Shown piece after piece: positions 54,688-62,774 of a stretch of DNA of 64,000 bases; position 1 is the stretch's first letter, and each line of letters begins with the position of its first letter. The translations under genes and the position numbers were made by a program. The DNA is from Chitinophagaceae bacterium (GTDB lineage Bacteria > Bacteroidota > Bacteroidia > Chitinophagales > Chitinophagaceae). Location of the stretch: NCBI GenBank assembly GCA_947455215.1, contig CANGNA010000020.1, positions 1-64,000 on the forward strand. Direction: 5' to 3'. The notes under the pieces were generated by a model. The model saw nothing but the letters and a program-made list of their open reading frames with translations. It had not been told where the DNA came from and searched no databases.

Positions 54688-55518
54688 ATGCGAGACCCTT
54701 CTACATATATACAACTCAACAGCCCTTGCCACGAGGATCTTGCCTCGATGAGCCCTACAGAACGCGGCAGGTACTGCACATCGTGCCAGGTAGATGTCAT
54801 AGACTTTTCCCGGCTGTCTGATGCCGAGGTACTAAACATACTGGGCACACTAAAGGGCCAGCCTATGTGCGGCATGTTCACGCCACAGCAGCTGAACAGG
54901 CCGCTGGTGCAGCCTGCAGCGCATCAGTCGCTCATTTTATTATCGCGGAAGAAGATAGCAGCAGCATTACTATTATTCCAGTCGCTGGTCACTGCTGCTA
55001 CAGCACAGGTAAAGACGGCTACCAAAACAGAACAAACAGCTACACCGGTCTCCCCAATCGATAGCACTATAGTGGTAAAAGGGCGCGTGCTCGATGGCTA
55101 TTCACAGGAACCGGTGGCCGGTGTAAAATTAGGGATAAGCTACATATCGCCAGATACTGTGACCGATGCTCATGGCTACTTCGAATTTCATGTAAAACCC
55201 ACGCTACGTAGCAGTTACATAGTGATATCGCATACTGGCATCAGTAATCAAGACCCATTTATAATAGAAGACAAGAACGTACTTGTAGATAGTGCACAAA
55301 AAGAGGAGGTAATACTCTATCGTTACATGGGCGGCACTATCGAGCATACGATAAAGACCTATAAGAAGCCGCTGGTTGACTCTTATGGAGGATTCACTAC
55401 TGTTGTTACCGGACAGGGCGCACTTTATTCCTCACACCCCACGGTCATCAACATGTGGAAGGTGTGGGACCTCTTTGCCAAACCCTTTAAAAGAAAAAAG
55501 CATCATGATAAGAAATAG
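54688..55518 (+). CDS. Four-cysteine membrane protein A with periplasmic carboxypeptidase-regulatory-like domain
   Basis: About 276 residues from ATG 54688. N-terminal domain of 75 residues: C14 (NSPCHEDLASM), C30 and C33 (GRYCTSCQVDVIDF) and C61 (MCGMFTPQQLNR), a zinc-ribbon-like pattern. A single helix follows at about 88-107 (IAAALLLFQSLVTAATAQ). The rest is a CarboxypepD_reg-like beta-sandwich (VVKGRVLDGYSQEPVAGVKLGI, TDAHGYFEF) with a basic tail. Predicted topology is cytosolic ribbon and periplasmic sandwich. Paralogous to the genes at 55974 and 56804. It overlaps the next gene by 14 bp. The domain is common in Bacteroidota but has no known function. Confidence 0.82.
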   Translation: MRDPSTYIQLNSPCHEDLASMSPTERGRYCTSCQVDVIDFSRLSDAEVLNILGTLKGQPMCGMFTPQQLNRPLVQPAAHQSLILLSRKKIAAALLLFQSLVTAATAQVKTATKTEQTATPVSPIDSTIVVKGRVLDGYSQEPVAGVKLGISYISPDTVTDAHGYFEFHVKPTLRSSYIVISHTGISNQDPFIIEDKNVLVDSAQKEEVILYRYMGGTIEHTIKTYKKPLVDSYGGFTTVVTGQGALYSSHPTVINMWKVWDLFAKPFKRKKHHDKK

Positions 55519-55921
55519 CCTGTTACTACTATTTGCCTTGCTGCTTGCCTCTGTAGCTCATGCACAGCATAAGAAGCCGGTCAAGCCGCACGCACCCGTG
55601 CGGCCAGACCCAAAGTATGCCGTATACTGCCCCGCCGAATTCCCCGGCGGCAAAGCTGCCCTCAAGCGCTTCATAGACACAACGTTTAACTACCCCGAGG
55701 CAGCTAAAGAGGCCAACATACAAGGCCGTGTTGTTACCCGGTTCGATATTGATGAAAATGGCAAAGTTGCCGGCATGAAGATACTACGCAGCATTGGCGG
55801 CGGCTGCGAAGAAGAAGCCAAACGGGTTGTTGACCGCATACCGTTATGGCAACCGGCTACTTATAACAATATGCCTGTAACCAGCAAATACACACTGGTG
55901 GTCACCTTCAAACTGGAATAA
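55505..55921 (+). CDS. Secreted TonB C-terminal-domain protein 1, no membrane anchor
   Basis: About 138 residues from ATG 55505. A cleavable signal peptide (SLLLLFALLLASVAHAQ) is followed by a short Lys/Pro linker and a TonB C-terminal domain: FPGGKAALKRFIDTTFNYPE, GRVVTRFDIDENGKV, PLWQPATYNNMPV, YTLVVTF. If the signal is cleaved the domain is free in the periplasm and has no N-terminal helix to contact ExbB/ExbD, unlike true TonB. The start overlaps gene A by 14 bp, implying coupled synthesis. Confidence 0.87.
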   Translation: MIRNSLLLLFALLLASVAHAQHKKPVKPHAPVRPDPKYAVYCPAEFPGGKAALKRFIDTTFNYPEAAKEANIQGRVVTRFDIDENGKVAGMKILRSIGGGCEEEAKRVVDRIPLWQPATYNNMPVTSKYTLVVTFKLE

Positions 55922-55973
55922 GACATGTTTAACAGATATAGGTGTACATTTGAATAAGTACCTTTTTGAGCCG

Positions 55974-56807
55974 ATGGCACAAGCGAGACAGATAACGATA
56001 CCTAACCCATGTAATGAGCCATGGGATGGGATGCGCCCCTCAGGGCAGGGCAGGCATTGTACTGCGTGCCAGCAAACCGTTATCGACTTTACTGCCATGA
56101 CCGACGAGCAGGTGCTCAATGTATATCGCCAGGCTAAGGGGCATACCCCGTGCGGACGGTTCCTGTCCACTCAGCTCAACAGGGAACTGATACCTGCACG
56201 TAAGCCATCTTGGTGGGCAAGAGTGGCCGGCAGGGCCGCTGCGCTGGTACTGCTGTTGCAGTCTGCCTCAGCTTCAGTCCATGCACAGGCAGCGCGAACC
56301 AAAACAGCAACAATACAGCACAGCAACGATAAAGAAGACCATCCAGTAATGACCAGCATCAACGGCCGCGTTGTTGACGGACCTAACGAAACACCCTTAC
56401 CCAACTACCAGGTAAGTATAGCAGGCTATAAGGCAACTACCGATAGCATGGGCTGCTTTACGCTATACATCCCGGCATCGATGGACAACACTAACGCTAC
56501 TATGTTATGCCATCCGGTGGATACATTAGCGCCTGGATATACCTGCAATGTGATAAACGTTAATACTGCTGAATATGCCGGCAACAAAAAAGAGTTCAAG
56601 CATATATTTTCCCATATCATAGCGCTTACCGTTACAACAGACAATGTGTATCACTTCGACCCCAACCAAAGATATATTGTCCAGGGTGTACCACCACAAA
56701 ACCCTGTTTCCATATACGCATTCGATACAAGTAAGCTATATGTAAAGCTGAGCTACTACAAGGTAAAGAAGCACGTAAAACGTATATACAAACCCAAGAA
56801 GAAGTGA
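55974..56807 (+). CDS. Four-cysteine membrane protein B with periplasmic beta-sandwich
   Basis: About 277 residues from ATG 55974. Same architecture as A: C13 (PNPCNEPWDGM), C29/C32 (GRHCTACQQTVIDF), C60 (PCGRFLSTQLNREL), a helix near 86-105 ending in a VHAQ-like site, then a Carboxypeptidase-regulatory-like domain (INGRVVDGPNETPLPNYQVSIAG, DSMGCFTLYI) and a very basic tail (YYKVKKHVKRIYKPKKK). The sandwich is much diverged from that of A and C, whereas the N-terminal 75 residues are conserved, so the cysteine domain is the constrained part. Its last codon overlaps the GTG of gene C by 4 bp. Confidence 0.82.
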   Translation: MAQARQITIPNPCNEPWDGMRPSGQGRHCTACQQTVIDFTAMTDEQVLNVYRQAKGHTPCGRFLSTQLNRELIPARKPSWWARVAGRAAALVLLLQSASASVHAQAARTKTATIQHSNDKEDHPVMTSINGRVVDGPNETPLPNYQVSIAGYKATTDSMGCFTLYIPASMDNTNATMLCHPVDTLAPGYTCNVINVNTAEYAGNKKEFKHIFSHIIALTVTTDNVYHFDPNQRYIVQGVPPQNPVSIYAFDTSKLYVKLSYYKVKKHVKRIYKPKKK

Positions 56808-57589
56808 AGCACCCCATAGCCATAACACTACCCAACCCCTGCGAAGAAAGCTGGGATGCAATGACACCTGCACAAGGTGGCAGGCACTGTGCCATGTGCA
56901 GCAAAACGGTTGTGGATTTCACGTTGATGAGTGATAGCGAGATAATAGACATCTTCCGCAAAGCGAAGAACGACACCCCTTGCGGCCACTTCCGTGCGTC
57001 GCAGCTGAACAGGGAATTGGTAGACACACGAAGGCGACCATCGCTTATTTCTGTGGCAGTAAAGAGGGTCGCCGCAATGTTGCTGTTAGTGCAATCTGCA
57101 ACAAATGCAGTAGCACAACAAAAGAAACCCGTTAACACTCACGTTCAAGGAACTAAGCAAAAGGCTAAGCCGGCTGGCAAGCGCATAGTAGGGTGCCTCA
57201 TCAACTACGGCAGTAATACGCCGGTGGCAGGTGCCCGTATCTGGATCAGAGAGCTGGGTATAGATACGTTCACCAACATAGAAGGCTCTTTTGTTTTTAC
57301 ATTGCCCGACAGCTTTAGCAAAGCTACTGTGCTCGTTGAAAGCTCCGGGCAGCCCTCAGACAGGTACACTGTTATAGAGGAGATCATAACACTTGCTGAT
57401 ATCGTTGCAGGTAAAGAGTTCACCCTTTATCAGTATCCTGTTACCCGTTTGCCCGAACATATTATAGTGCGGGATGCGCTGAGAGACAGAACATACACAG
57501 GGATAGCCCCCATGCAGTATATGGATGTAGCACCCAAACCCACTTTCTGGCAACGCCTCTTTAAACCATTCAAAAAGAGGAAGGGATGA
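56804..57589 (+). CDS. Four-cysteine membrane protein C with periplasmic beta-sandwich
   Basis: A protein of 261 residues from a GTG start. C13 (PNPCEESWDAM), C29/C32 (GRHCAMCSKTVVDF), C60 (PCGHFRASQLNREL), helix near 85-103 (VKRVAAMLLLVQSATNAVAQ), then a sandwich (VGCLINYGSNTPVAGARIWI, TNIEGSFVFTLPDSF) and a basic tail (FKPFKKRKG). The GTG overlaps gene B's stop, and its own stop overlaps the next ATG by 4 bp. Coupling on both sides argues that B, C and the second TonB-domain protein are made in fixed ratio. Confidence 0.82.
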   Translation: MKHPIAITLPNPCEESWDAMTPAQGGRHCAMCSKTVVDFTLMSDSEIIDIFRKAKNDTPCGHFRASQLNRELVDTRRRPSLISVAVKRVAAMLLLVQSATNAVAQQKKPVNTHVQGTKQKAKPAGKRIVGCLINYGSNTPVAGARIWIRELGIDTFTNIEGSFVFTLPDSFSKATVLVESSGQPSDRYTVIEEIITLADIVAGKEFTLYQYPVTRLPEHIIVRDALRDRTYTGIAPMQYMDVAPKPTFWQRLFKPFKKRKG

Positions 57590-58029
57590 ACATTGTCCGT
57601 GCTATAATTTGTGCTTCCTCATTGCTATTGGCCATGCCTGCAACCGCCCAACAGAAGCATACCAAACCACGCCCCCGCAGCAAGGGTGTTATTGCTATAT
57701 CTGCACCGCCGGAAGTATACACCTATGTGGAACAGCAACCGGAATACGCAGGTGGCACTGCTGCACTCAACAAGTTTCTCGATGAGCATTTATACTATCC
57801 TGATGTAGCACGAGAAAATGAGGTAACAGGGAAAGTATTAGTGCGCTTTTTAGTTGACGAAGAAGGAACAGTAACACATGTAAAAGTGGTAAAAGGCATA
57901 GGCTATGGCTGCGATGAAGAGGCACTACGGGTAGTAAAGGCCATGCCCCGCTGGCACCCCGGCAAGGTGAATGGCAAGCCGGTAAGAACTATGTACCTGC
58001 TGCCTATTGTGTTCCGCATCAATAACTGA
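57586..58029 (+). CDS. Secreted TonB C-terminal-domain protein 2, no membrane anchor
   Basis: A protein of 147 residues. Signal peptide (IICASSLLLAMPATAQ), a basic Pro-rich linker, then a TonB C-terminal domain: EYAGGTAALNKFLDEHLYYPD, TGKVLVRFLVDEEGTV, PRWHPGKVNGKPV and a final strand. Paralogue of the protein at 55505 (shared GG-AAL-F, YP-A, V-RF-D, CEEEA/CDEEA and the W-P motif). As with that protein no membrane anchor remains after cleavage. Last gene of the array; a hairpin follows. Confidence 0.87.
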   Translation: MNIVRAIICASSLLLAMPATAQQKHTKPRPRSKGVIAISAPPEVYTYVEQQPEYAGGTAALNKFLDEHLYYPDVARENEVTGKVLVRFLVDEEGTVTHVKVVKGIGYGCDEEALRVVKAMPRWHPGKVNGKPVRTMYLLPIVFRINN

Positions 58030-61724: not shown

Positions 61725-62195
61725 TGTGCAGTGGGTGTTGGGGCTTAACTACAAACCTGTTGGCACCTACGGGGCAATGACATTATACGTAGTGTATCTT
61801 TCGCACTTTCAGCGCTCTTACTGGTTTGTTGGTTACCCGGGACTGCATCCCGGGCTATTGTCTTTCGCGCTTTCAGCGCTTTGTGCGGTGGGTGCTGGGG
61901 CTTAACTACAAACCTGTTGCCACCTGCGGGGCAATGACATTATACGTAGGGTATCTTTCGCACTTTCAGCGCTCTTACTGGTTTGTTGGTTACCCGGGAC
62001 TGCATCCCGGGCTATCGTCTTTCGCGCTTTCAGCGCTTTGTGCGGTGGGTGTTGGGGCCTAACTACAAACCTGTTGCCACCTGCGGGACATTGACGTTAA
62101 ACGTAAGATATCTTTCGCACTTACAGAGCTCTTACCGGTTTGTTGGTTACCCGGGACTGCATCCCGGGCTATCGTCTTTCGCGCTTTCAGCGCTT
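61725..62195 (+). repeat. Tandem array of three 157-bp units
   Basis: Unit starts at 61725, 61882 and 62039 (spacing exactly 157 bp). Each unit contains GGGGCTTAACTACAAACCTG, a GGTATCTTTCGCACTTTCAG segment, the hairpin CCCGGGA-5-TCCCGGG, and CTTTCGCGCTTTCAGCGCTT. Units one and two are nearly identical; the third has more substitutions. Because 157 is not a multiple of three and the apparent overlapping frames simply restart, the array is not coding. Confidence 0.9.
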
Positions 62196-62774
62196 TGATT
62201 TTGGGTCTCAATAGTATTGCGCTTACAGTAAGCATATTCATGCGCAGGGCGGATGCGTATAGGACAAACGATTGTAAATAGTTCTGTGGTATAGTAAGAT
62301 AGGTAATGCGCAATGCCGATGTGTACAAGCCGATGACCTGTGTTTCTGTTTTCATATGTAGGGTTGCATTGTTTTGGCAATGCGGGTGCAAATTGGTATT
62401 TAATCTGCTAACGGGCAAAAACGCCACGCATCATTAACAGAATTTTTGAGTGATAATGTGGATAACGGAACGTAAATGATTGACCTGGTGGGAGATGCCT
62501 TTTTGTGTGATTTTAAAAAAGTTTTGGGGCACCCGGGCGGGTTGTCGCCAACATATGTGATGGTATTACAAATGCCGCCGGACTGGGAAATAGGTAATCT
62601 AAAATGAGGTGAGATATACAGCGAATCAGGAGATTCGTTTACTTGAGTGGTCACGAGAGCGCTGCGCTGAAATCTCGCGATAAAAAAGGCGAAATATTCT
62701 ATTCATCTATACTAGTGCGATGCCTGACACTTGCAACATATATTATAAAGTAGCGCCTTAAAAACAATAAATTC
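62196..62774. other. Gene-free stretch after the tandem repeat
   Basis: No supported gene. It becomes AT-rich toward 62.75 kb. With the repeats, the gene gap from LtrA to the kelch protein is about 1.39 kb. Confidence 0.6.

Follow-up and report, generated by a model that had tools for sequence, protein, structure and literature searches.

An array of five open reading frames (ORFs) lies on the plus strand of a 64,000-nt stretch of a Chitinophagaceae bacterium contig (the window), at positions 54688 to 58029. It encodes three proteins with four conserved cysteines, A, B and C, and two proteins with a TonB_C domain, TonB1 and TonB2. Computation revealed a conserved domain around the four cysteines, its predicted fold, signal-type sites behind it and a nonrandom linkage to TonB_C. 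Our best reading of these sequences is that the domain is a metal-binding, export-linked pro-domain that would bring TonB-like and receptor-like modules in soluble form into the periplasm; the parts of this reading that we infer are cleavage, the binding of metal, the release of soluble modules and the function of the pro-domain.

All five ORFs are present on the same strand in the order originally predicted, A (276 aa; 54688..55518), TonB1 (138 aa; 55505..55921), B (277 aa; 55974..56807), C (261 aa, GTG start; 56804..57589) and TonB2 (147 aa; 57586..58029), and the overlaps were found as described (A/TonB1, 14 bp; B/C, 4 bp; C/TonB2, 4 bp). Tight coupling holds at these three junctions but not between TonB1 and B, which starts 52 bp after TonB1, and the array is therefore made up of two coupled cassettes, A-TonB1 and B-C-TonB2. 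A, B and C have the same layout, a putative four-cysteine pro-domain followed by a signal and a sandwich-like passenger, and are homologous across the N terminus and into the passenger (BLASTP, E of 6e-28 for A/B and 8e-40 for B/C).

The four-cysteine domain

The motif C-x15-CxxC-x27-CG...QLNR, which had been claimed for the N termini of A, B and C, is indeed shared by all three. It places the four cysteines at C14, C30, C33 and C61 in A (domain at 54688..54909, from sequence and family alignments) and at C13, C29, C32 and C60 in both B (55974..56192, from family alignments) and C (56804..57022), in domains that are predicted to be cytosolic. We analyzed two sets of relatives, a first set of 121, which contains three pairs that are ≥90% identical, and a named set of 112 proteins from named genomes of overlapping clades. 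A protein was kept out of the named set if the first set already contained its first 70 residues, but three repeats slipped in, and 109 proteins remain without them. Motif counts in both sets leave out proteins of <110 aa.

All four cysteines are retained in 119 of the 121 relatives, the exceptions being one truncated and one frame-split copy, so that the cysteines are conserved across homologues, as had been anticipated. In the named set, 110 of 112 proteins align at all four cysteines; of the remaining two, one has a gap at one of these positions and the other has gaps at three. An alignment (A3) of 118 rows, from which six short pieces and a truncated, a frame-split and one near-duplicate row were left out, has the four cysteines as its only invariant positions. 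The N-terminal part is also much better conserved than the passenger, with a mean pairwise identity of 40% versus 17% in a random 60 of the 121 relatives, in line with the original prediction. From this strict conservation and the CxxC spacing, we infer that the four cysteines would hold a metal, probably zinc.

AlphaFold2 folded the domain of C into a short hairpin, a strand, a helix and a strand with a predicted local distance difference test score (pLDDT) of 86. The domain matched no Pfam family (A to C, 29 domains, and the 121 and 112 proteins) and, among the window proteins, no NCBIfam family. A sequence search of the PDB found no relative, only weak HMG-box matches (best E, 0.37), and a Foldseek search for PDB folds, such as those of solved zinc ribbons, gave a best E of 4.3 and no Z of ≥2 among 19 realigned chains, for a domain that is very small. 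Protein C as a single query against the genome contigs found no relative either, and a literature search of titles and the beginnings of abstracts, in which subscription journals were thinly covered, found no paper on the domain.

Within the genus, the domain is present in 11 of 11 genomes with 41 matches, two of which are pieces of one frame-split gene. It was found in 43 of 98 genomes of the family sample and, with up to 14 first-look candidates scored per genome, in at least 54 of 395 genomes of the phylum sample. The source genome (4.2 Mb) has two further four-cysteine genes on contig C27, with no TonB_C match in the surrounding 13 kb. A scan of named genomes turned up 390 relatives and, in Flavipsychrobacter stenotrophus RB1R16, the same array. 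The 80 best relatives were retained, and these have Bacteroidota titles except for one "uncultured bacterium" and two from a metagenome-assembled genome labeled Williamsia, which we take as a labeling or binning error. The original prediction had such proteins occurring singly, which applies to 81 of 97 loci, but runs of two to four are found in the other 16. In two loci (L095, 4991-5512; L077, 5160-5912), a stop stands between the four-cysteine domain and the following signal or passenger, for which a genuine split, decay and a sequencing error are all candidates.

The hydrophobic helix

A, B and C had been described as membrane proteins, and proteins of the B and C type as possible membrane anchors for the TonB domains. 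However, the hydrophobic cores of A (54946..55005), B (56223..56285) and C (57062..57115) end in VTAATA/Q (a predicted signal peptidase [SPase] I site; the slash marks the cleavage position), SVHA/Q and NAVA/Q, respectively, and thus have the look of cleavable signals. The relatives behave alike. One fixed rule for an SPase I-type or lipobox site at the helix end, applied in the same way to all sets, found such a motif in 103 of the 121 relatives (64 AxAQ, 34 lipobox, 5 AQ) and in 99 of the 112 named proteins (97 of 109 after removal of the repeats). Under this rule, ordinary N-terminal signals carried the motif in 131 of 176 cases, the best internal hydrophobic segments in 8 of 117 and single internal segments of neighboring genes in 2 of 49. 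The relatives thus have an SPase I- or II-type site behind the core about as often as ordinary signals do, as expected of a cleavable Sec signal peptide.

Lineages differ in whether an SPase I-type site or a lipobox occupies this same helix-end position, and they weigh unequally, since a single LFSC type accounts for 21 of the 34 lipobox proteins. L-F-S-C is invariant in 18 aligned fusions of the LFSC type to TonB_C, and A/Q stands at the same position in other TonB_C fusions (L152 and Aureibacter). The residues ahead of the core carry a net positive charge in 104 of the 121 relatives and in 97 of the 112 named proteins, and therefore the N terminus should face inward and the domain should be cytosolic. 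The cytosolic N-terminal domain of the original prediction is supported to the extent that the domain is predicted to fold and to lie in the cytosol.

The passengers are in keeping with release. The type IX sorting tail (PF18962) was matched in 46 of the 112 named proteins and in 2 of the first 121, and by our own sorting-tail profile 49 of 233 proteins are tailed, 43 of these with a cleavage-type motif. Since so many passengers carry this tail, they must leave the inner membrane. Moreover, a neighboring paralogue at L086 lacks the four-cysteine domain and still has the signal, lipobox and passenger; the other four aligned neighbors, at L084, L090, L099 and L106, are also without the domain but are more diverged than that of L086. 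Within the genus, the passenger of L026, for which no domain was found, is 76% identical over 204 residues to the passenger of L028, which stands behind half a domain. On the grounds of the cleavage-type sites, the type IX tails and the domain-less relatives that keep signal and passenger, the membrane-anchor reading was rejected. The helix of A, B and C is probably a cleavable Sec signal and not an anchor, and the N-terminal ~70 residues are probably a cytosolic pro-domain.

The explanation that fits best is that A, B and C are Sec-exported precursors consisting of a cytosolic four-cysteine domain of ~70 residues, a cleavable signal peptide and a small periplasmic domain. The domain, whose cytosolic location and fold are well-supported predictions, would stay with the signal on the cytosolic side while SPase I frees the passenger, a step for which comparative sequence analysis argues strongly. 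We regard this combination of a folded cytosolic domain and a cleaved helix with release of the passenger as highly probable.

Several points weigh against it. Cleavage, metal binding and localization are all predictions, and because the relatives are mutually related, their motif counts cannot be treated as independent. The hydropathy rule that picked the control segments was crude, and some of these segments are stretches buried within soluble proteins. By the fixed rule, 18 of 121 and 13 of 112 proteins have no motif, and among these some look like missed lipoboxes and others are without a visible site. The long folded N-terminal region could slow or block cleavage. Finally, when AlphaFold2 was applied to a natural domain-lipobox-TonB_C fusion, the model was poor (mean pLDDT of 54.5, with residues 109 to 211 mostly at <50), and no docking of the linker, or of a Ton-box-like strand on TonB_C, was seen in it.

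TonB_C partners and passengers

An alignment of TonB1 with TonB2 has 148 positions and 36% identity, and both score far above the Pfam cut-off of 24.6 bits for TonB_C (PF03544), with 67.5 bits for TonB1 (domain at 55688-55915) and 78.2 bits for TonB2 (57787-58020). By eye, each has an N-terminal signal of the cleavable type (AHA/Q or ATA/Q) and no further membrane segment, as had been stated in the original prediction. The N-terminal membrane anchor of TonB couples it to ExbB/ExbD. TonB1 and TonB2 thus resemble TonB energy transducers in the TonB_C domain but differ from them in that a signal peptide replaces the anchor; by eye, neither has an uncleaved one.

Of the 81 TonB_C matches in the genus, 10 lie directly next to a four-cysteine gene, in 9 of 11 genomes, compared with ~0.1 adjacencies estimated for random placement (assuming ~3,800 genes per genome); the ten share ancestry. 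The TonB_C gene comes first in one of the ten, and the four-cysteine gene is frame split in one. Genes overlap at 6 of the 7 measured genus junctions where TonB_C follows; A/TonB1, which also overlaps, is outside the seven. Elsewhere, the domain, signal and TonB_C are fused, in 17 of the 121 and 5 of the 112 proteins (Pfam), and an Aureibacter plasmid carries a signal-bearing TonB_C protein followed by two such fusions, annotated "energy transducer TonB." The association with TonB domains is therefore nonrandom, as predicted. Only 4 of the 80 named loci have a TonB_C-only gene on the same strand at a distance of up to 250 bp, two of the four (L179 and L185) are genus genomes already counted, and hence an adjacent soluble TonB_C is not general. 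The link is real but clade limited, and other lineages fuse the domain and TonB_C. At L236 (G007:C374; 1913-3173), a four-cysteine gene extends across two frames and adjoins a TonB_C gene.

The carboxypeptidase-regulatory-like sandwich ascribed to the passengers held only in part, in that CarbopepD_reg_2 (PF13715) in A, B and C reached 29.6, 18.8 and 22.6 bits (E of 7.3e-7, 0.0017 and 1.1e-4), below the cut-off of 32.2, but relatives surpass it, with 67.1 bits, for example. At an E of 0.001, PF13715 was matched in 62 of 121 and 65 of 112 proteins. A [ML]G[EGDK][VIMP] motif is enriched in the passengers (34 of 121 and 32 of 112 versus shuffle means of 5.8 and 9.4). Tiny passengers of ~38 to 85 residues without a sandwich (L040, L110, L115, L117, L124 and L151) still have an MG-type motif, e.g., MGE or MGK, with LGE in L117.

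The N-terminal extension (NTE) of SusC is PF13715 and precedes the Ton box DEVVVTG; in a strain that lacked the NTE, growth on levan could not be detected after 24 h (PMC7782687). The passengers resemble this arrangement in that their sandwich matches PF13715 and is sometimes followed by an EVVVTG-like sequence; they differ in being mostly without a plug, in having no barrel in the sequences read and in being free, lipid anchored or type IX tailed by prediction. We tentatively propose, at somewhat less than even confidence, that the three SusC-NTE-like passengers would act in the periplasm as soluble modules, as would the signal-bearing TonB C-terminal domains of TonB1 and TonB2, all of them made in a fixed ratio from overlapping genes and working together or with TonB-dependent receptors.

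Compatible with this proposal, the passengers could be TonB decoys, in which a Ton-box-like strand after the NTE-like sandwich pairs with TonB C-terminal domains and so tunes the real receptors. Indeed, besides the SusC precedent, 15 passengers of the first 121 and 20 of the named 112 have a Ton-box-like pattern, compared with means of 2.1 and 3.0 and maxima of 6 and 8 in shuffles, and Plug was matched in 4 of 121 and 13 of 112. The pattern is in a minority, however, and may simply have been inherited with the NTE fold; like the [ML]G[EGDK][VIMP] motif, it is not clear in A, B and C, and the poor fusion model gave no docking. We therefore consider decoys unlikely, although they fare better than the other alternatives below.

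No Bacteroidota-type promoter was matched inside the array on the plus strand. Sigma-70-like sites (6 versus 8.3 in shuffles) and terminator-like sites (8 versus 5.3) in the array were both uninformative. The whole window has 8 matches to TTTG-N17-23-TANNTTTG versus 1.6 expected; we take this motif to be the Bacteroidota-type promoter, and the excess is consistent with such promoters. Farther downstream, at 61725-62197, a 157-bp unit is present in three tandem copies with 94% matches.

Possible roles of the domain

Zinc-binding anti-sigma factors (zf-HC2/ZAS) have a cytosolic cysteine domain that is a helical bundle, one hydrophobic helix and a periplasmic domain. A, B and C are predicted to share this layout, but their four-cysteine domain is predicted to consist of strands and one helix instead of a helical bundle, and their helix has cleavage-type sites. 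A zf-HC2/ZAS match was found by Pfam in none of A to C, the 29 domains or the 121 or 112 proteins. The extended signal peptide region (ESPR; PF13018) is a conserved N-terminal extension of 25 residues before an otherwise normal Sec signal peptide and is specific to type 5 secretion; the C-terminal part alone is usually enough for export (PMC8151025). The four-cysteine prefix is likewise a conserved extension in front of a signal peptide but is ~70 residues long, is predicted to be folded, has four conserved cysteines and precedes unrelated passengers; ESPR had no match among the 121 or 112 proteins at an E of 0.001. A Riemerella carboxypeptidase-domain protein (PMC8459023) was considered and set aside.

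The four-cysteine domain suits a wide range of unrelated passengers, and its loss can leave signal and passenger in place. We therefore favor a module that acts ahead of export or in the course of it, in targeting, timing or holding. This assignment is provisional, and we hold it with rather less than even confidence. A stand-alone relative on a Calothrix brevissima plasmid (L241, 2447-2770) is in line with the precursor explanation; it has 107 residues and 40% identity to L151, and neither a signal or passenger was visible in it nor did Pfam give a match.

A bolder alternative is that the domain reports on export. After cleavage, the membrane-bound four-cysteine remnant, or a fragment of it produced by intramembrane proteolysis, would act in the cytosol, e.g., on a neighboring sigma factor of the extracytoplasmic function (ECF) type, to signal how much passenger has been exported. 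The much higher conservation of the domain than of the passengers and the stand-alone Calothrix relative speak for such a role, as do the ECF loci: in 24 of 178 loci, a four-cysteine gene and an ECF-type sigma gene are divergently oriented, and next after the sigma gene comes a protein from a single BLAST cluster; a TonB_C domain was scored in 11 of the 24. In four of these cluster proteins, Pfam placed TonB_C above the cut-off in two, at 24.5 versus 24.6 in one and nowhere in one, and the regulatory-like sandwich above a cut-off in three. However, the 24 loci are mostly one conserved chromosomal locus (L156 and L080 are the same place), and the sigma identity was confirmed by Pfam in L157 only. 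Furthermore, no ECF sigma gene was seen directly beside the window array, and no intramembrane cleavage site is known. The reporter role is thus improbable on present evidence. In L157, L163, L192, L232 and others, the order is an ECF-type sigma gene and then a membrane protein, divergent from the four-cysteine genes; the cytosolic start of that protein is anti-sigma-like by eye, with no Pfam match there, and it often has a regulatory-like sandwich and TonB_C. A XerD-like gene is present in 18 of the 24 ECF loci.

About equally improbable is the more general version, a two-product precursor used throughout the phylum, in which one gene would give both a four-cysteine metal domain, membrane bound on the cytosolic side, and an envelope module that is released in soluble, lipidated or type IX-secreted form; the remnant would report export or metal status, and TonB-like and receptor-like modules would be the main cargo. 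We give slightly less credit still to partial processing, by which part of each product is cleaved and part stays anchored, so that one gene yields a tethered, sensor-like form and a free periplasmic one. A long folded N-terminal region is unusual for a signal, and the proteins without a site by rule would fit, but there is no sequence evidence for retained forms, and type IX-tailed and lipidated passengers need release. The original model of a split TonB-like device, in which anchored A, B and C join soluble TonB domains to sense metal or redox state in the cytosol and transmit force or a signal to the outer membrane, accounts for the conserved TonB_C adjacency, the overlapping junctions and the folded four-cysteine domain, but nothing was found that bears on force transmission by the soluble TonB domains, and the model is very unlikely given the signal peptidase-type sites, the type IX tails, the domain-less relatives with signal and passenger and the lack, by eye, of an uncleaved N-terminal anchor in TonB1 and TonB2.

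Signal peptides are usually seen as short tags. If the reading of the four-cysteine domain as an export-linked pro-domain is true, a conserved domain, predicted to be folded, in front of signal peptides would be a new layer of export control. The prefix is present in at least 54 of the 395 sampled genomes of the phylum, and by prediction the signals behind it feed three exits: the periplasm, lipoprotein sorting and type IX secretion.

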